Assembly: GCF_900102745.1 (NCBI RefSeq)
Contig: NZ_FMZF01000004.1
Span: forward strand, 310,001-374,000
DNA length: 64,000 nt
Reading direction: 5' to 3'
Origin: Geodermatophilus telluris
Lineage (GTDB): Bacteria; Actinomycetota; Actinomycetes; Mycobacteriales; Geodermatophilaceae
The position numbers were made by a program, and so were the translations under genes. Below are positions 19,243 through 28,383 of the stretch, piece after piece; the first letter of the stretch is position 1; every line of letters starts with the position of its first letter. The notes under the pieces are model-generated. The model made no database searches, was not told the DNA's origin, and saw only the letters and a program-made list of their open reading frames with translations.

Positions 19243-19535
19243 GCCCCCCGGCGTGGCCTCCGGCGCCGACGAGGACCCTCATCGCCGCCACGACCTGTTC
19301 GTGCACGGCTGCACGCCGACCGTGGTGCGAGGGTGTGGCCGATCCCATCGGGTGACCGGTGCCGCCATGCCGGTCGCGGCTGCGCCGCGCGGAGGATCGA
19401 CCGGTCCGCCGGTCACGGCCGGCGAACGTCCCCCGGCGCCATCCGCCGGGGCGGGGTCGGCCGCGGGGTACCGGAGGATGGCTGGAGACGTTCCCCACGG
19501 GAACTGGAGGGCGGCTTCCTACGGTCCGCGCGGTG
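19243..19535. other. Control region upstream of the relaxase (possible oriT)
   Basis: There is no gene in these 293 bases. They hold several inverted repeats, including TTCCC-CAC-GGGAA (about 19491–19503) and GACCGGTCCGCCGGTC (about 19399–19414). MobF relaxases usually nick an oriT close to their own gene, so this is the natural place for a nick site. No nic sequence can be recognised by eye. Confidence 0.3.
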
Positions 19536-22500
19536 ATGTCGCTGCACAAGCTGACCGCGGGCGACGGGTACACGTACCTCACCCGCCAGGTGGCCGCCTT
19601 CGACGCCACCGAGCGAGGCTACGGCGGGCTCGGTGACTACTACTCCCAGCGCGGGGAGTCCCCGGGCGTCTGGACCGGCGGCGGCCTGCACGGCCTGGAC
19701 GGAATCGACGCCGGTCAGCCGGTCGGCGAGGAGCAGATGAGGGCGCTGTTCGGCGAGGGCCGCCATCCCGACGCCGCCCGGCTGCAGCGGCAGGCCCTGG
19801 CCGCCGGCGCCGACCGGCAGCAGGCGTGGCTGGCGGGGGCCTTGGGCCGGCCCTTCTACGTCTTCGCCGCGCGTGCCGACGGATTCCAGGCCCGCTGCGC
19901 CCGAGCGTGCGCGGCGCTCACCCGCGCCCGCGGACACCCCCGCGACTCCCCGATCACCGACGAGGAGCGGGCAGGCATCCGCAGCGACACCGGCCGCGAC
20001 ATGTTCACCGATGTCTACGGCCGCGCGCCGCGGGATGCCCGCGAGTTGTCGGGGTTCATCGCCCGGCTGTCGCGATCGGCGACCACCGCGGTCACCGGGT
20101 ACGACCTGACCTTCTCCCCGGTCAAGTCCGTCTCCGCCCTCTGGGCGCTGGCACCCCGGGACGTCGCCGAGCGGATCGAGGCCGCCCACGCCGCCGCCGT
20201 CGCCGTCGCCGACACCCTCTCCTGGCTGCAGGGACATGCCTGCCTCACCCGCACCGGCGCCGACGGCGTGCGCCAGGTGGAGACCACCGGGCTGGTCGCG
20301 GCGGTGTTCACCCATCGCGACTCCCGCGCCGGCGACCCCGACCTACACAGCCATGTCGCCGTCAGCAACAAGGTGCAGACCCGCGACGGCCGCTGGCTGG
20401 CCCTGGACGGGCGGGTGCTGCACAAGGCGGCGGTGAGCGCCTCCGAGCGGTACAACACCCGGCTGGAGGCCCACCTGGCCGACCGGGTCGGCGTCCGATT
20501 CGCCGACCGTCCCGGCCAGACCGCAGGCACGCGGCCGGTGCGCGAGGTCGTCGGCGTGGACGACCGCCTGCTGGCCACCTGGTCCTCGCGCCGGCAGGTG
20601 ATCGACGTCCGCCGCGGCGAGCTGGCCGCCGCGTTCCAGCAGCGGCACGGCCGCACACCGACCGCGATCGAGGCGATCGCCCTGGCACAGCAGGCCACCC
20701 TGGAGACACGGCAGGCCAAGCACGAGCCGCGCTCCCTCGCCGAACAGCGGGTGACCTGGCGGCGGCAGGCGCTGGCCGTACTCGGAGGCCCGGCCGGCCT
20801 CAGCGGCATGCTCGACCGGGTCCTAACCCGCGAGCGGACACCGGCTCTGCCGGTCACCGAACGCTGGATCCGATCAGCGGCCCTGCGGGTGCTGGAGACG
20901 GTGAGCGGGCAGCGGGCGACCTGGCAGGTGTGGCACGTGCGCGCCGAGGCCGAGCGGCTGGTACGCGCTGCTGCGCTCACCTCCGACGAGGTGGACCGCG
21001 CGGTCGATCGGCTGACGGCGGCGGTCCTCTCCCCCGACCTGTCCATCCCGTTGGGCGATCCGGACCCGGTGGTCGAGCCGCCGCCGCTGTGCCGTTCGGA
21101 CGGCTCCAGCGTCTACACCGTCGCCGGTGCGCGCCGCTACAGCAGCCGCGCGGTGCTCGACGCCGAGGCGCTGCTGCTCGCCGCGGCCGGCCGAGGCGAC
21201 GGCCGCCGCGTCGATCCGGCCGTCGTCGAGCTGGCCCTGCTGGAAACCACCGCGAACGGCAGGGAACTCAACCCCGGCCAGGCTCAGCTGGTCCGCGACC
21301 TGGCCGGCAGCCGGGCCCGGGTGCAGCTAGCCGTCGCCCCGGCCGGGGCGGGCAAGACCACCGCGCTGGCCGCCTTGTCCCGCGCCTGGGAAGCCAGCGG
21401 CGGCGACGTGCTGGGGCTGGCGCCCTCGGCGGTGGCCACGGCCGGTCTGCGCGAGGCCGTCGGGGCACCGTGCGACACCGTCGCCAAGCTGACCTGGTCG
21501 CTCGACACCGGGAACCTGCCCGACTGGGTCACGGCTATCGGCCCGGGCACGCTGGTCATCGTCGACGAAGCCGGCATGGCCGGCACCCGCGACCTGGCCC
21601 GGGTCGTGGCGCACGTGCTGGGCCGGGGCGGGTCGGTGCGGCTGGTCGGGGACGACCGGCAGCTCACCTCCGTCGCCGCCGGCGGCGTGCTGACCGAGAT
21701 CGCCGCCCGCCACGGGGCGGCGACCCTGACGCAGCTGGTGCGCTTCACCGACCCCGCCGAGGCCGCAGCCACCGTCGCTCTGCGCGACGGCGACACCACC
21801 GCCGTCGGCTTCTACCTCGACGCCGGGCGGGTGCACGTCGGCGACCTGACCACCTGCGCGGAGCAGGCCTACACACGGTGGGCCGCCGACCGCGCCCGCG
21901 GCCTCGACGCGCTCCTGCTGGCCGCCACCCGCGACGTCGTGCAGCAACTCAACGACCGCGCCCGCGCCCACCGCCTCGCCTCCTCCGGTGTCCCGCCGGG
22001 CCGCGAGGTGACGCTGGCCGACGGCACCCGGGCCGGCGCCGGGGACCCGGTCATCACCCGCGCCAACGACCGGCGGCTGCTCCTCACCGGCGCCGACTGG
22101 GTGAAGAACGGTGACCGCTGGACCGTCACCGCCGTCCGCGCCGACGGCGCCCTGCGGGTCGCGCACACCGGCACCGGTGGACGGCTCACCCTGCCCGCGG
22201 CCTACGTCGCCGAGCACGTGCAGCTGGGCTACGCCAGCACCGTGCACGGCGCGCAGGGCGTCACCGCCGACACCTGCCACGCCGTGCTCACCGGCGCGGA
22301 GTCCCGACAGCTGCTGTACGTGGCGCTCTCCCGCGGACGGACGGCCAACCACGTCTACCTGCCCACCGTGGGCGACGGCGACCCGCACAGCCTCGTCACG
22401 CCCGCAGCGGTGTCCCCGCCGACCGCCACCGACCTGCTCATCGCCGTGCTCGGCCGCGACGACGCCCAGACCTCGGCCACCGGCGACCGCCGGGCGCTGA

Positions 22501-25457
22501 CCGACCCGGCCGGGCAGCTGCACTCCGCCGCCACCCGGTACGCCGACGCCCTGCGCGTCGCCGCCGAGCACCACCTCGCCGGCCCCACCGTCGAAGCCCT
22601 GCAGGACGCCGCCGAGCGGCTGCACCCGCACCTCACCGCCGCCACGACATGGCCGACGCTGCGCGGGCACCTGGCACTGCTCGCCCTCCTCGGCGCCGAC
22701 CCCGTCGCCGCGCTGCGGACCGCGGCCCCGGTCCGCGAACTCGACACCGCGCACGACTCGGCGGCCGTCCTGCAGTGGCGACTGCCCGAGCCCGGCCCGG
22801 CCGGTCCGCTGCCCTGGCTGCCCGGCGTGCCGGCCGCGCTCGCCGACGATCCGCGCTGGGGCCCCTACCTCGCCGCCCGCACCGACCACGTCACCGCCTG
22901 CGCGGCCCGCGTCGCCGACACCGCCGCCACGTGGACGCCGGCCACCGTCCCCGCGTGGGCCCGACAGCTGATCGATCCGGCCCTCGCGCAGCTGCGCTCC
23001 GACGTGACCGTCTGGCGCGCCGCCCTCGCCGTGCCCGACAGCGACCGGCGACCCACCGGGCCCCCGCGCCCTGCAGCCGCCGAGCGCCGGCACCAGCGGC
23101 GGCTCGAGGAGGACCTCGCCGCAACCGCTCCGGCCCGGAGCAGCTCGGTGTGGGCGGCGCTGGCCGACGGCATCGACCCCCGCATCCGCCACGACCCGCA
23201 CTGGCCCGCGCTCGCCGCACGGCTGGCGGCCGCCGACCGCGCCGGCCTCGACGCCGCCGGCCTGCTCGCCGCGGTCGCGGCGCACCGGCCGCTGCCCGAC
23301 GACCTGCCCGCCGCCGCGCTGTGGTGGCGGCTGACCCCCCACCTCGCCCCGGCCACCATCCCCGCCGCTCCGGGCACCGCCGGACCGCGCCCGGACTGGT
23401 GCGCCACCCTCCGGCGACTGCTCCCCGACGCCGACGGCGTGCTGGCCGATCCCGCATGGCCGGCCCTGGTCGCGGCCGTCACCGCCGGCAGCCGCACCGG
23501 CTGGTCCCCCGCCGACTTGCTCGCCGCCGCGGTCATCGGCCTGCCGGCCGCGGCCGTCGGCGACCGCACCGGCCGCGCACGCACCGAGGCGCTGGTCTTC
23601 CGGATCACCGCCCTCACCGACACCCCGCCCGTCGATGCACCCGAACCGCTGCCGGCCGACCTGCAGCCCCCCGATGACGCCGACCAGCTCGCGTCCATCG
23701 AGGACCCGGCCGCCGTCGGCGCCGCGGGTCCGGCCGACCCGCCGCCCGGTGACCAGGACGCGCCGTTCGACCCGGAGTGGGATGCCCCGCCGCCGACGGC
23801 CGAGCCGCGCAACCTCACTCCCGACCCGTTCACCTGGACCGGTCGACCCGTGGCCGACGAGGCGGACTACCTGCTCGAGCAGCACTTCTGGGCCACGGCC
23901 GCCGTCGGGCGCGACCGGCTGATCGAGCTCACCACCCAGGCCGCCGCCTTCTACGCCGACTCCTACCCCGGCTCCTGGGCACCCGGCTACCTGCGCCGTC
24001 GCCTGGGCACCGACCTCACCGCCGATCCGCGCTTCGACCCCGGCTACGCGCCCGGTGGCTGGACGACGCTCGTCGACCACCTGCGCTCCCGGGGCGCCAC
24101 CGACGACGAGCTGCTGGCCGCCGGCCTCGCTCAGCGCGCCCGCACCGGGGCCCTGATCGACCGCTTCCGCGACCGGCTCACCTTCCCCATCCGCGACGTC
24201 GACGGCGCGATCCGCGGCTTCGTCGCTCGCCGCAACCCCGCAGTCGCCGAGGACGGCCGCACCGGACCCAAGTACCTCAACACCCCCGGCACCGACCTCT
24301 ACCGAGAAGGCGAGCACCTCCTCGGGCTGCACGAGAACCGAGCGGCGCTGGCCGCCATTGTTGAATACTATTCCGCTCGACCTGCCCAACTGTATTTCGA
24401 CCAACTGTGGGTGAACCGCCGGGAGCGCCACGTCCATTCGGGCGATAGGGAAGGGCCGCCCACGGTTCTTCAACTTGAGTTCAATGTCCCTTGCGGCGGA
24501 GCGGCTCAAGCAGTACATGGCCCCGTGCATGGCGGCGGGACGATCGACCCAAGGCCACCGGCGGGTCAGCCTCACTGGCGTCTGATGTTTTCTATCTCGC
24601 TCGCAGAGGAGGGTTGGGACGCGGGCCAGCTCGAAACGGCCCTCCGAGACTTCCGCGCGAAATGGAAGTTGGAGTTAGTGGCCGCCGTTCGGCAAGCGAA
24701 CGTAGAAATTGCCGAGCGGCGTAGCCAAATGACCGAGCAGGTGGGAGCCGAAGTTGGCCGACGGCGGAACCCCCTCGTCGCCGTTCAGCGTGCAACGAGA
24801 AACCTGTCGATTCCCCTGTCGCGAACGACCGCCGATGTCGCGGTGATTCCCGTATCGCCACGTCATCTGTCGCTTGCTGCTGCCGAGTCTGCTGTTGCGT
24901 CCGGTAGGGAACCGTTCTCGTTGGCTGATGACATCGCCGAGGGCCTCCTCCAGACCATCGCTTCCTTCTCGCGCGCGCTTGAGCGATTGCCGGTGACCGC
25001 GGACAAGCTGTTGGGCGAGGACGAGGAAACCTTGCGCGACGTCCTTCTGTTCGTCCTGAACGCGAACTGGGCTGGCCAGGTGACCGGTGAAACGTTCATC
25101 GGCCTCGGTAAGACAGACATCTCCCTGCGCTGGCGGGATCTCGATGCCTTCATCGCGGAGTGCAAGTTCTGGCATGGCGCACGCCACTTCTCTGACGCGG
25201 TCGAGCAGCTCTTGGGTCGCTACGTAGTCTGGCGGGACACGCGCGTCGCCCTCATCCTCTTCGTTCGAGACCGGAAGGACGTCTCTCGCGTGCTTCAAAG
25301 CGCATCCGAGGTTCTAGAAGCTCATGAGCGCCTCCTGTCAGCCGCCGAGTGGGATGCGGACAAGACAAGAAGGGACTTCTCGTTGCAGTCCAAGACCGAT
25401 GAGGGAAGGGTGATTCGCCTCAGCTTGCTTCCGGTAGTCGTTCCAACATCCGCTTGA
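19536..25457 (+). CDS. Chimeric ORF: MobF relaxase–helicase–primase fragment joined to a PD-(D/E)XK nuclease
   Basis: The 1,973-codon frame holds two unrelated proteins. Residues 1–350 are a MobF (TrwC/TraI) relaxase: tandem tyrosines Y35–Y36 in GDYYSQRGESPG and the HUH pair H271/H273 in DPDLHSHVAVSN. A RecD/TraI-like helicase follows, with Walker A around K607 (APAGAGKTTAL) and Walker B VIVDEAGMAG. Residues about 1480–1605 match the DnaG catalytic N-core (LIDRFRDRLTFPIRDVDG, then GPKYLNTPGTDLY). Near codon 1607 (24354) the composition falls and an unrelated protein begins. It ends in a nuclease core with D1861 (GKTDI) and E1875-C-K1877 (FIAECKFW). ATG 19536 and GTG 19533 both fit the start; the expected Toprim domain is missing. 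Confidence 0.85.
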   Translation: MSLHKLTAGDGYTYLTRQVAAFDATERGYGGLGDYYSQRGESPGVWTGGGLHGLDGIDAGQPVGEEQMRALFGEGRHPDAARLQRQALAAGADRQQAWLAGALGRPFYVFAARADGFQARCARACAALTRARGHPRDSPITDEERAGIRSDTGRDMFTDVYGRAPRDARELSGFIARLSRSATTAVTGYDLTFSPVKSVSALWALAPRDVAERIEAAHAAAVAVADTLSWLQGHACLTRTGADGVRQVETTGLVAAVFTHRDSRAGDPDLHSHVAVSNKVQTRDGRWLALDGRVLHKAAVSASERYNTRLEAHLADRVGVRFADRPGQTAGTRPVREVVGVDDRLLATWSSRRQVIDVRRGELAAAFQQRHGRTPTAIEAIALAQQATLETRQAKHEPRSLAEQRVTWRRQALAVLGGPAGLSGMLDRVLTRERTPALPVTERWIRSAALRVLETVSGQRATWQVWHVRAEAERLVRAAALTSDEVDRAVDRLTAAVLSPDLSIPLGDPDPVVEPPPLCRSDGSSVYTVAGARRYSSRAVLDAEALLLAAAGRGDGRRVDPAVVELALLETTANGRELNPGQAQLVRDLAGSRARVQLAVAPAGAGKTTALAALSRAWEASGGDVLGLAPSAVATAGLREAVGAPCDTVAKLTWSLDTGNLPDWVTAIGPGTLVIVDEAGMAGTRDLARVVAHVLGRGGSVRLVGDDRQLTSVAAGGVLTEIAARHGAATLTQLVRFTDPAEAAATVALRDGDTTAVGFYLDAGRVHVGDLTTCAEQAYTRWAADRARGLDALLLAATRDVVQQLNDRARAHRLASSGVPPGREVTLADGTRAGAGDPVITRANDRRLLLTGADWVKNGDRWTVTAVRADGALRVAHTGTGGRLTLPAAYVAEHVQLGYASTVHGAQGVTADTCHAVLTGAESRQLLYVALSRGRTANHVYLPTVGDGDPHSLVTPAAVSPPTATDLLIAVLGRDDAQTSATGDRRALTDPAGQLHSAATRYADALRVAAEHHLAGPTVEALQDAAERLHPHLTAATTWPTLRGHLALLALLGADPVAALRTAAPVRELDTAHDSAAVLQWRLPEPGPAGPLPWLPGVPAALADDPRWGPYLAARTDHVTACAARVADTAATWTPATVPAWARQLIDPALAQLRSDVTVWRAALAVPDSDRRPTGPPRPAAAERRHQRRLEEDLAATAPARSSSVWAALADGIDPRIRHDPHWPALAARLAAADRAGLDAAGLLAAVAAHRPLPDDLPAAALWWRLTPHLAPATIPAAPGTAGPRPDWCATLRRLLPDADGVLADPAWPALVAAVTAGSRTGWSPADLLAAAVIGLPAAAVGDRTGRARTEALVFRITALTDTPPVDAPEPLPADLQPPDDADQLASIEDPAAVGAAGPADPPPGDQDAPFDPEWDAPPPTAEPRNLTPDPFTWTGRPVADEADYLLEQHFWATAAVGRDRLIELTTQAAAFYADSYPGSWAPGYLRRRLGTDLTADPRFDPGYAPGGWTTLVDHLRSRGATDDELLAAGLAQRARTGALIDRFRDRLTFPIRDVDGAIRGFVARRNPAVAEDGRTGPKYLNTPGTDLYREGEHLLGLHENRAALAAIVEYYSARPAQLYFDQLWVNRRERHVHSGDREGPPTVLQLEFNVPCGGAAQAVHGPVHGGGTIDPRPPAGQPHWRLMFSISLAEEGWDAGQLETALRDFRAKWKLELVAAVRQANVEIAERRSQMTEQVGAEVGRRRNPLVAVQRATRNLSIPLSRTTADVAVIPVSPRHLSLAAAESAVASGREPFSLADDIAEGLLQTIASFSRALERLPVTADKLLGEDEETLRDVLLFVLNANWAGQVTGETFIGLGKTDISLRWRDLDAFIAECKFWHGARHFSDAVEQLLGRYVVWRDTRVALILFVRDRKDVSRVLQSASEVLEAHERLLSAAEWDADKTRRDFSLQSKTDEGRVIRLSLLPVVVPTSA

Positions 25458-25496
25458 GCCGCGCGGCGGCCAGGCCGTCCTGACGGGGGAGCTGAA

Positions 25497-26855
25497 GTGA
25501 CGACCTTCCCGAAGCTAGACGTAGAGACGGGGTCCTACCCGTGCACGGTGATCTATCCGAACGGTGACCGGCAGGCTGGGCAACTCGAACTCGAACCATC
25601 TAAGAGTCCCCATGGCGAGGTGTTCGGGACGCCACCCGGCCTGGAGAAGGCCACATCCTTCCCGCAGCCTCCGCAGCACTTCTCCGTCCTGGCGTGCGAC
25701 TTGCGCGTTGGTTATCAGCCCCTTCTCCTGAACGCGTCTGTGGAGATGTGGTTCCCAGGTCGCTCACTCGTACGGGCCGAGGCTGCGGTCGTGGGGCACG
25801 GGCTGGAGCAGGACCCTGAATCAACGTTCCCAGAGGTAAGTCTGCAGATCACCGGCGGGCACCGGATCTTCGGTGCTACGCCGGTCAAAGAGACCTCCGG
25901 GCCTAGGTCGCTGCCTCCACAGGGGACGGTTGAATACAAAGCAACGATCGACGTGGATGCGAACAGGTCCTACCAGCGGGACGATGTTGAACTCCGATGC
26001 CGCTATTGGCTGTCAGCGCACAATCTCGACTACTACAGATTCGGTGTGCGCACTGCTCCTGTGTTCGAAATCCGGGACGCAAGCCGGCCGACTGCTCTGG
26101 GTTGGATCGCAGATCATGTCCTTCCCCTGCGCGAACTCGTCACACTCGGGACTCTAGAACAGCAGACCGTCAGTTGGTTGGAGCTCGATCACGAAGATGA
26201 CGGCACGAAGTTCGGTAGCGTCCAGGTTTTCTCCCGAGAGATCGCACAGTCGCCGTATGCGCCGACCATCGACCGCGATAAGGACGGTCGGTCGCTCTTT
26301 GTATTCAGCGCACTGCCCTATAGTCCCTTGGAGCTGGTAGAGCGTTGGGAGAAGCTGCGAGCCGCGCATCCCAACTTCATCGAACCGTTGATTCGAGGTG
26401 TTACGGAGCCGACCGACTCTCGATCCGGGTTCCTGCTGACAGTCCAGGCCTTAGAGGGTCTCCACACCGAGACATACGGGGAAGGGTCACAGTATTCCGC
26501 GAAGCACAAAGAAGAGCGGGACAGCATTCTAAAAGACGTGAAACAGCTCGGACTCAGCAAGAAGCGACGCGCGTTCCTGCACCGATGGCTGGACATGAAC
26601 GGCCGCTACAGCTTGCGCGATCGTCTGAAAGAGCTGCGCGATGACGTCGCGGACGATGTGTTGAGCATAGTGAACCTCGACCTGATTCCCGGTGACGTTC
26701 CTCTGTATCGCAATCAGATCTCACACGGCGCGGGCAACGTTCCGGCTACGACCCTGCGACCCGTCGGTCGAGCTCTGGCCGCGCTCGGTGTTGCGCATGT
26801 CTTGCGTCTGCTCGATCTACCGCGCGACCGAATGTCGCACCTCTTCACTAGGTGA
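25497..26855 (+). CDS. ApeA-like anti-phage protein with HEPN ribonuclease domain
   Basis: A 452-residue protein beginning at GTG 25497, with GGGGGAG just upstream and 39 bases after the nuclease stop. Residues 1–270 look like the beta-rich ApeA N-terminal domain (LGWIADHVLPLRELVTLGT near its end). Residues about 300–445 are the helical Apea-type HEPN domain: LLTVQALEGLHTE, YSLRDRLKELRDD, and the catalytic R405-x4-H410 in YRNQISHGAG. HEPN domains of this class cleave RNA, and ApeA proteins abort phage infection. Codon use and GC are lower than in the chromosome around it, as in the preceding nuclease, pointing to joint acquisition. Function is inferred from family only. Confidence 0.75.
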   Translation: MTTFPKLDVETGSYPCTVIYPNGDRQAGQLELEPSKSPHGEVFGTPPGLEKATSFPQPPQHFSVLACDLRVGYQPLLLNASVEMWFPGRSLVRAEAAVVGHGLEQDPESTFPEVSLQITGGHRIFGATPVKETSGPRSLPPQGTVEYKATIDVDANRSYQRDDVELRCRYWLSAHNLDYYRFGVRTAPVFEIRDASRPTALGWIADHVLPLRELVTLGTLEQQTVSWLELDHEDDGTKFGSVQVFSREIAQSPYAPTIDRDKDGRSLFVFSALPYSPLELVERWEKLRAAHPNFIEPLIRGVTEPTDSRSGFLLTVQALEGLHTETYGEGSQYSAKHKEERDSILKDVKQLGLSKKRRAFLHRWLDMNGRYSLRDRLKELRDDVADDVLSIVNLDLIPGDVPLYRNQISHGAGNVPATTLRPVGRALAALGVAHVLRLLDLPRDRMSHLFTR

Positions 26856-26886
26856 CCCGCTGTGCTCGGCCGCCCGTGTCTCTCAT

Positions 26887-26998
26887 CTACACGCCGCGTG
26901 CGCGACGCGTCCGTTCGATGGCGGCGGTGTGGTCGGGCTCCTTGGCGACGTGGGCGTAGACGGCGTCTGTGAAGGCGATGGAGTGGTAGCCCAGCCAC
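26887..26998 (-). pseudogene. C-terminal remnant of a tyrosine recombinase (integrase)
   Basis: Reading the minus strand from 26998 gives WLGYHSIAFTDAVYAHV and a short charged tail ending at a TAG (26887–26889). This is the end of a phage/ICE-type integrase, where LGH-x-S-I-x-x-T...Y carries the nucleophilic tyrosine; here the usual His is Tyr. The rest of the gene is gone, cut exactly where the IS3-type end begins. It is the likely integrase of the element carrying the relaxase. Confidence 0.6.
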
Positions 26999-27211
26999 AG
27001 GACTGCCCAGACTTCAGTTGACTCTGGTGGGTAGGGGCGGTCAGGCCGCGAGAGCGGTCTGGGTCAGTGTCTCCAACTCGATGGGGGTCATGCGGCCGAG
27101 GGCGTCTTGGCGCTGGCGGCGGTGGTCGGTCTTCCCGATCCAGATGACGATTGCCAGCCGTAGTTGCTCGCGGGTGGTCCAACGGTGGCGGTCGAGGACG
27201 TTCCGCCTCGG
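26999..27211 (-). mobile_element. 3' remnant of an IS3-family insertion sequence
   Basis: The C-terminal end of an IS3 ORF-B transposase is visible from about 27211 to the stop at 27041. NVLDRHRWTTREQLRLAIV is followed by the HRRQRQDALGRMTPIELE block. This corresponds to the final RRRxxALGxxTPxEFE region of the DDE integrase. Outside it, 26999–27023 (GGACTGCCC–GTTGACT) resembles an IS150-type terminal repeat. The catalytic DDE residues and the other end are absent, so it cannot move by itself. Confidence 0.65.
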
Positions 27212-27409: not shown

Positions 27410-27640
27410 TCAAGCGCGCAGCGGGCGGGTCGTCACCGAGGCGGTCCAGGTGAACTAGGGCCGGCCGTGCTCGTCGGCGGCAATTTCGGGGCCGGTCACG
27501 GCCAGTGTCGACCAGTCCGGCAAGCCCGGGTCGCCGGCGTCGAGCACACGATGGCGGAGTTCGGCCCGCAGCCCCGCGGTCGCCCGCTCGAGGTTGTCGT
27601 GGGGCAGCGACGTCGACGCCTGGTAGGCCACGGTGCGCAT
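27410..27640 (-). pseudogene. Small hypothetical protein gene stopped by an in-frame TAG
   Basis: From ATG 27640 the minus strand reads MRTVAYQASTSLPHDNLERA and continues to DEHGRP. It then meets a TAG at 27455–27457, followed in the same frame by FTWTASVTTRPLRA and a TGA at 27410. The sequence around the stop, GRP-[TAG]-FTWTA, suggests a Trp codon (TGG) became TAG. The protein would be about 76 residues. Function is unknown; its place beside the integrase remnant suggests cargo of the decayed element. Confidence 0.45.
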
Positions 27641-27741
27641 CGTCCCCGTGCCGCGGTCCGGCCGGCACGGTTCGGTCACGTGATGTCACACCAGGGGGTC
27701 GGTGGGCGTGGCGGGTCCGCGGCGGCGGCTACACCGTCCGA

Positions 27742-27969
27742 GTGACGATCCTTGTCCGCCTGCTGGACGAGCGCCGCTTCGACCCGCCGCGGGACGTCGA
27801 GGTGGAGAACGACGGCCGGTGGTGGTCCGGGGAGCAGACGGCGTGGGGCTTGTGTGATGACGGGTTCGGCTGGCGCGCCGCGGTCACCTGGCGGCAGCTG
27901 CACGACTACGGCTGGGGCCGTCACCTCACGAGTGTGCCGCCCGAGCGCGTCCGCCTCAGGGCGCGGTGA
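27742..27969 (+). CDS. Small hypothetical protein
   Basis: A 75-residue frame from GTG 27742 to TGA 27967–27969. The sequence VTILVRLLDERRFDPPRDVE, followed by GRWWSGEQTAWGLCDDG and HDYGWGRHLTSVPPERVR, has an even composition, several Trp residues and an acidic/basic balance unlike the surrounding junk frames. This makes it a likely real gene. No domain is recognised. A longer in-frame upstream start (27505) is possible but lies in low-complexity sequence. It sits between the degraded element and tRNA-Asn. Confidence 0.5.
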   Translation: MTILVRLLDERRFDPPRDVEVENDGRWWSGEQTAWGLCDDGFGWRAAVTWRQLHDYGWGRHLTSVPPERVRLRAR

Positions 27970-28168
27970 GGCGCTCCGCGCCCGATGCACAGTTCGGGGA
28001 TGTCGATCGCCGCGGCGCCGGCACGTCCTCGTCGCCGACCCGCTCGACGATCCCCGCCCGCACAGAGGATGCCCTCACCGGAGGTGGGCGGTCCGCTCGT
28101 TTGTTGGTCGTAAATTGGTCGTGGGGCCCGGGTTCACGACCGCGTCAGGCCGCTGACCTGGAGTGTTG

Positions 28169-28241
28169 CTCCCCCGATTGGACTCGAACCAATAACCCTG
28201 CGATTAACAGTCGCATGCTCTGCCAATTGAGCTACGGGGGA
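28169..28241 (-). tRNA. tRNA-Asn (anticodon GTT)
   Basis: On the minus strand a 73-base cloverleaf begins TCCCCCGTAGCTC and ends CGGGGGA plus discriminator G. The anticodon loop is CTGTTAA, giving GTT (Asn). The T-arm is GGTTCGAGTCC. CCA is not encoded. Its 3' end points toward the integrase remnant and the mobile-element genes, the usual position of an ICE attachment site. Confidence 0.95.
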
Positions 28242-28383
28242 CGGGCGGCTGCGAGCCGCGCGCCCGTCGAGAGTACCCCACGGCTCCGGGCGCCCCACGG
28301 AGGCTCTCGCGTCGCGGACGGTCCGGTGCCGCCGTAGCGTGATCACCCGGTCGGTGTCCGCTTCGAACCCCCGGAGGTCCCCC

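Follow-up and report, generated by a model that had tools for sequence, protein, structure and literature searches.

How does the gene for a conjugative relaxase come to end in a nuclease, and does the product work as a chimera or mark the end of a mobile element? The question is raised by a single open reading frame (ORF) of Geodermatophilus telluris, located in a stretch of 64,000 nucleotides (contig NZ_FMZF01000004.1, positions 310,001 to 374,000; hereafter the window), which starts as a MobF relaxase and runs into a nuclease of PDC-S54, a phage-defence candidate family of PADLOC. The evidence described below points to a large deletion by illegitimate recombination that fused the relaxase gene to a cargo nuclease gene and ended self-transfer of the element, a reading to which we assign a probability of roughly 0.8.

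A relaxase gene continues in frame into a nuclease gene

The fused ORF comprises the following features (window coordinates, strand):

19536..25457 (+): fused open frame, 1973 codons counted from ATG 19536, or 2032 from the first GTG at 19359
19557..20774 (+): TrwC (MobF) relaxase domain (Pfam PF08751, E 7.3e-83, 278.9 bits; NCBIfam MobF 244.8 bits, over the cut-off)
21264..21845 (+): AAA_30 helicase-type domain behind the relaxase domain (Pfam PF13604, E 6.3e-60)
23982..24338 (+): DNAG_N, the N-terminal part of the DnaG catalytic core (Pfam PF08275, E 2.4e-22)
24354..24359 (+): junction, with the last relaxase codon GCC at 24354-24356, the nuclease from 24357, and a 3-bp identity (GCC) between the parent types
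24357..25457 (+): nuclease tail of 366 codons, a headless PDC-S54 member (PADLOC E 1.8e-63, tail residues 2-363 on profile positions 49-407 of 410)

The ORF at 19359-25457 (+) contains no internal stop. Translation from ATG 19536 begins M(S/T)LHKLTAG, a start found in four of the six relatives printed, the other two printouts ending short of it; numbered from this ATG, the last relaxase codon is codon 1607. A TrwC match over the cut-off followed by a helicase domain identifies the ORF as a MobF relaxase. In what follows, G000 is the source genome of the window, G001, G009 and so on are the genomes of relatives, and L numbers denote loci in other genomes. As in the G009 relative, TrwC, AAA_30 and DNAG_N occur in that order, and over about 1600 residues the relaxase part shares 73-76% identity with the six relatives that were fully compared. 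MobF (TrwC-type) relaxases of Actinobacteria that have helicase and DNAG_N domains keep a Toprim domain, whereas in the window Toprim and everything after residue 1607 are replaced by the nuclease. The relaxase-primases of the sibling elements described below have DNAG_N followed by Toprim; the fused ORF has DNAG_N and gave no Pfam match to Toprim at E <= 0.01, and a search of the genome for the lost relaxase tail or its Toprim elsewhere found only the chromosomal dnaG. In the G009 relative, the one tested with Pfam, Toprim_2 lies directly after DNAG_N. The initial annotation had described a frame that stays open past codon 1607 into unrelated, AT-richer sequence and lacks Toprim, and both descriptions were borne out: there is no stop, the homology switches at this point, and the GC content at third codon positions, 0.925 over the final 600 nt upstream of the join, drops to 0.691 beyond it.

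Both parent genes are truncated at the same base

Across the join, the window has GCTGGCCGCC on the relaxase side and ATTGTTGAA on the nuclease side. The closest relaxases have GGCCGCC/GGCGCC or similar at this place (the slash marks the join), and the nucleases have GATGCC/ATCGTT (or ATCGTC)GAC. Since GCC stands in both parent types, it is shared sequence at this point, and the same base cuts both parents with the frame kept. Alignment of the ORF to intact MobF relaxases and to stand-alone nucleases, a check proposed with the initial annotation, showed that each side matches a different intact gene: relaxase homology in the relatives ends at 24356 and nuclease homology begins at 24357. When 485 residues spanning the join were used as query against 61 genomes, the 15 best matches outside the source genome (L003-L017) were relaxases of the same kind that stop at, or at most 3 residues from, query residue 119 (window base 24356), and none of them extends into the nuclease tail; weaker matches were mostly DnaG-like frames. 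The frame is open over 1842-1935 amino acids in 14 of these 15 relaxases and frameshifted in the remaining one (G014). All 11 of the 15 that were printed continue into an EG(P/L)xDA stretch, which reads as Toprim. On the other side of the join, stand-alone nucleases of 410 (G190) and 411 (G235) amino acids align from the first tail codon on, with 47% and 45% identity, and carry about 49 extra residues in front; the family's own start is gone in the window. A join on the same strand would stay in frame about one time in three, and the open frame is unremarkable in itself.

The nuclease tail keeps a predicted catalytic core

PD-(D/E)XK nucleases have a core in which D and ExK lie in neighbouring strands of an alpha-beta-beta-beta-alpha-beta order. 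The feature in question is:

25023..25319 (+): predicted PD-(D/E)XK core with D254, E268 and K270 of the tail, assigned by conservation and predicted fold

The tail had no sequence match in Pfam, NCBIfam or the PDB. It covers positions 49-407 of the 410-position PDC-S54 profile and has all 20 invariant alignment columns; PDC-S54 genes stand alone and encode about 410 amino acids, whereas the window tail is without the first 48 profile positions and its own start and sits behind a relaxase. The three catalytic residues, D1861, E1875 and K1877 of the fused ORF, are among the 20 columns invariant in the 69 aligned family members (alignments A2 and A3, consisting of the window tail and the 68 of 80 loci with ORFs of 370-460 amino acids; a smaller alignment, A1, holds 6 sequences). 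An AlphaFold2 model of the tail (mean predicted local distance difference test score (pLDDT) 85.3, predicted template modelling score (pTM) 0.57) has helix 223-237, strands 242-248, 251-259 and 262-271, helix 275-289 and strand 296-304. D254 is located in strand 251-259 and E268 and K270 in strand 262-271, flanked by helices 223-237 and 275-289, a placement that agrees with the PD-(D/E)XK core in the predicted fold. A Foldseek search of the PDB with this model gave no match at E <= 0.001, and its weak matches included the repair endonuclease 2vld (E 0.12) and EndoMS 5gke (E 0.22) amid unrelated proteins. As neither the sequence searches of Pfam, NCBIfam and the PDB nor the fold search gave a significant match, the PD-(D/E)XK assignment rests on motif, conservation and predicted topology, the motif being the D1861-x13-E1875-C-K1877 geometry that had been read from the sequence at the outset. 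In the model of an intact relative, L063 (mean pLDDT 81.9, pTM 0.52), the part lost in the window comprises a start predicted with low confidence, two helices (19-31 and 35-40) and over half of a third (43-54), and is far in sequence from the catalytic core.

The fusion looks private to one genome

The nuclease tail was found in 1 of 26 genomes of the genus, namely the source genome, and in 6 of 298 genomes of the order (source genome included); with a stand-alone nuclease as query, 7 of 396 genomes of the phylum matched, again including the source. Among these nuclease-positive genomes, only the source genome has a frame near 2000 amino acids. A scan of GTDB contigs confirmed 374 relatives of the nuclease, of which the best 80 were returned and analysed as loci. 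Their median ORF is 413 amino acids and the longest stop-to-stop frame 658 codons, with none open at a contig end, so that none of the 80 is fused to a whole relaxase; the seven ORFs outside 330-520 amino acids comprise three long (552, 553 and 648 amino acids) and four short ones (73-285 amino acids, some apparently broken). Nuclease relatives were also present in 20 plasmid records and at four viral-contig loci (frames of 308-433), and the exact junction 30-mer was absent from the viral contigs searched. Within the genomes and loci searched, the fusion thus looks private to this genome. The same full-length fusion without Toprim in relatives, which the initial annotation had named as the sign of an old architecture, was sought and not found, so that recombination stands. 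A literature search, largely at title level, found no report of such a relaxase-nuclease fusion and no paper naming PDC-S54. Polyvalent proteins of mobile elements, outlined in PMC5512222 as a pervasive class with recurring domains, resemble the fused ORF as many-domain proteins of conjugative elements with a DnaG-like part; they are pervasive, whereas the relaxase-nuclease fusion was found once.

At two of the 80 loci, L090 and L075 (Mycobacterium terramassiliense and Acrocarpospora corrugata), a PDC-S54-type nuclease gene lies next to a MobF relaxase gene in convergent orientation. This orientation rules them out as tandem precursors.

Sibling elements at the same tRNA gene carry a coupling protein

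The element is anchored at its right end by the following features:

28168..28241 (-): tRNA-Asn (GTT), likely attachment site, an intact tRNA found by ARAGORN
28166..28203 (+) (C7:338166-338203): 38-bp repeat of the 3' part of the tRNA, with other copies at G000:C7:246650 (38 bp) and 237825 (37 bp)
27434..28299 (+): right end of the element and tRNA, 83% over 871 columns against the right end of the G001 sibling element

The 38-bp copies at C7:246650 and 338166-338203 form a direct att-type repeat at the tRNA gene. The repeat copies bound a 91.5-kb stretch ending at the tRNA, putatively one element, and next to it an 8.8-kb stretch whose right end carries an integrase; ARAGORN found no tRNA at C7:246650 or C7:237825. 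In a selection of predicted ORFs of the 91.5-kb stretch that was scanned, those with matches were mostly transport, metabolic or regulatory. The similarity of 27434-28299 to G001 takes in the final 0.7 kb ahead of the tRNA and sets in roughly 70 bp beyond the G001 integrase frame, and a tblastn search of the window with this integrase did not find a right-end counterpart (best E 0.49). A tyrosine integrase 73% identical to that of the G001 right end is present at G000:C7:245147-246478, within the neighbouring 8.8-kb stretch.

In five of the 14 relatives with an open relaxase frame (G001, G009, G008, G004 and G020), the relaxase gene has the same orientation and shares a contig with an intact tRNA-Asn. 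The distance from the codon homologous to the break to this tRNA is 34.4, 37.5, 48.8, 45.8 and 54.2 kb, respectively, and 3.8 kb in the window, and in each of the five a TraG-D_C match lies in this interval. The layout of G005 is similar, but ARAGORN found no tRNA there. Among the other relatives, the tRNA pattern is on the same contig as the relaxase in another arrangement (G012, G024, G026) or on a different contig (G007, G031), and the pattern was not found in G013, G028 and G036.

TraG-D_C was detected in 14 of the 20 genomes searched, which are all 14 with an open relaxase frame, and was absent from G000, G014 and four selected genomes of the genus without this relaxase. TrwB_AAD_bind matched in 18 of the 20, all but G000 and G014; in the four that lack this relaxase, the matching region spans only about 50 residues (E ~1e-5) and is probably an unrelated ATPase. 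No type IV coupling protein was found in G000 (no PF12696 or PF10412 match at E <= 0.001), and self-transfer of the element, judged on these searches, is therefore very unlikely. Type IV secretion system (T4SS)-type integrative conjugative elements of Actinobacteria, as outlined in PMC3218068, are similarly tRNA-anchored with a MobF relaxase, and the sibling elements carry a VirD4-like coupling protein; the window element differs in that neither a coupling protein nor a right-end integrase was found.

G014 (L156) has a frameshifted relaxase of the same kind and no coupling protein was found there, a case of parallel decay.

A deletion within the integrated element would account for the fusion

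Together these comparisons suggest that a conjugative element integrated at tRNA-Asn lost the stretch from relaxase codon 1607 to about codon 49 of a defence-type nuclease gene, which would have been carried as cargo near the right end of the element. By comparison with the sibling elements, the deletion would measure some 30-50 kb. Illegitimate recombination over about 3 bp (GCC) would have made the join, the frame being kept by chance. The deletion would have removed the relaxase Toprim and the coupling protein, and probably also the right-end integrase and what else there was of the transfer module, leaving an element that could no longer transfer itself. The product, if translated, would be a relaxase-helicase-DnaG_N protein ending in a nuclease with a complete catalytic core and without its N-terminal helices. 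The initial annotation had proposed that a nuclease gene recombined into the relaxase gene, either disabling transfer or creating a chimera. Recombination is upheld by the truncation of both genes at the same base, the intact relatives elsewhere and the private occurrence of the fusion, but insertion is not, as the comparison with the sibling elements makes a deletion likelier. Of its two outcomes, the disabling of transfer is favoured by the failure to find a coupling protein in the genome.

Several observations weigh against this reading or leave parts of it less certain. Only 5 of the 14 open-frame relatives show the comparable layout, and mobilisation by another element is conceivable. An intact precursor, that is, a complete relaxase followed by this nuclease in the same element, was found in no genome, so that one deletion, which we infer together with its timing and the loss of transfer, is not distinguishable from several steps. 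The relaxase shows no excess amino-acid change: the ratio of nonsynonymous to synonymous substitution (dN/dS; simple Nei-Gojobori counts over 1597 shared codons, averaged over the whole divergence) is 0.325-0.385 in the six pairs with G000, compared with 0.26-0.43 among the remaining 15. Of 42 positions with at least 90% conservation, the nuclease tail retains 37. Both findings fit a recent event, but continued function as well. At four of the tail's five departures at least one of the five nearest relatives departs too: at three all five differ, one is common to L067, and the remaining one (S for L) is the tail's own. Its conserved-position score is fifth from the bottom of 69 (tied), beside its nearest relatives. 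The lack of any sign of long decay suggests either a recent event or continued constraint, two possibilities that are not separable here.

Alternative explanations

The fusion could be a working chimera whose open frame is maintained by selection, either because the relaxase-helicase carries the nuclease to single-stranded or invading DNA or because the nuclease gains a promoter and a DNA-binding head from the fusion. We consider this unlikely. It would agree with a frame open over 1973 codons, a relaxase dN/dS that is not raised, intact catalytic residues in a core predicted to be complete, and the loss of the nuclease family's own start; however, only one of the 26 genomes of the genus has the fusion, the searches for a coupling protein found none, the nuclease has lost about 49 residues from its N-terminus (in the L063 model, two helices and over half of the next), and an in-frame join would arise by chance about once in three times. 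Still a little less probable is the specific proposal that the fusion is expressed and selected as a weapon against incoming or stalled DNA, the DNA-translocating relaxase-helicase delivering the C-terminal defence nuclease to its substrate.

Separate synthesis of the nuclease from an internal start, with the relaxase read-through existing on paper only, is similarly improbable. In-frame starts occur at 24411, 24525, 24585, 24669, 24678 and further on, and GTG 24678 (tail residue 108), which follows a GGAG at a distance of three bases, would still yield the catalytic core; yet the start native to the family, some 49 codons ahead of the join, has been lost, and use of 24678 would cost 107 more residues. 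A simple scan of 23900-25600 found no promoter-like site, which is weak evidence because shuffled sequences averaged only 0.1 sites and other promoter types lay outside the scan.

An assembly chimera of two unrelated places would explain the sharp change of composition at the join, and a single assembly of the species and no reads were at hand. We nevertheless regard it as hardly credible, since the join lies inside a 545,568-bp contig of a 12-contig assembly (100% completeness, 0.39 contamination) and the flanks belong together, the relaxase and the right end having the same relative order in the sibling elements at this tRNA. Finally, an old, stable domain architecture of actinobacterial MobF relaxases can be dismissed within the genomes searched, as the fusion occurs in none of the other 25 genus genomes and at none of the best 80 of 374 nuclease loci, where no stop-to-stop frame exceeds 658 codons.

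Genes between the fusion and the tRNA

Downstream of the fusion lies one further recognised gene:

25497..26855 (+): ApeA_NTD1 and ApeA-like HEPN gene, identified by domain matches, with third-position GC like that of the nuclease tail

Between 24357 and 27433 only the nuclease tail and this gene were recognised. Their third-position GC contents (0.69 and 0.695, against 0.93 in the relaxase) make the two look alike in origin. A conserved nuclease-HEPN pair was rejected, as no HEPN relative was found in the 80 nuclease loci or in five loci of the order, although L034 and L035, which end 33 bp and about 0.7 kb past the nuclease, could hardly have shown one. The window HEPN protein was found in 3 of 298 order genomes (source included) and in three plasmid records. 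In G009 a different ApeA_NTD1/HEPN gene (L154:12588-14450) occupies the corresponding interval between the coupling protein and tRNA-Asn; it has no significant BLAST similarity to that of the window (best E 0.93). Two short pieces at about 26886-27200 (-), which may resemble the C-terminus of an integrase and that of an IS3 transposase, had no Pfam match and are left unassigned.

Implications

The locus presents a gene fusion that can be read to the single base pair; relatives of each parent gene, and sibling elements sharing the tRNA, are available for comparison. It indicates how a defence nuclease carried as cargo can come to be expressed from a relaxase gene through loss of a conjugation module. 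Should the chimera not work, the locus would be a clear case of a conjugative element becoming a fixed island; should it work, nature would have joined a nuclease to a DNA motor.

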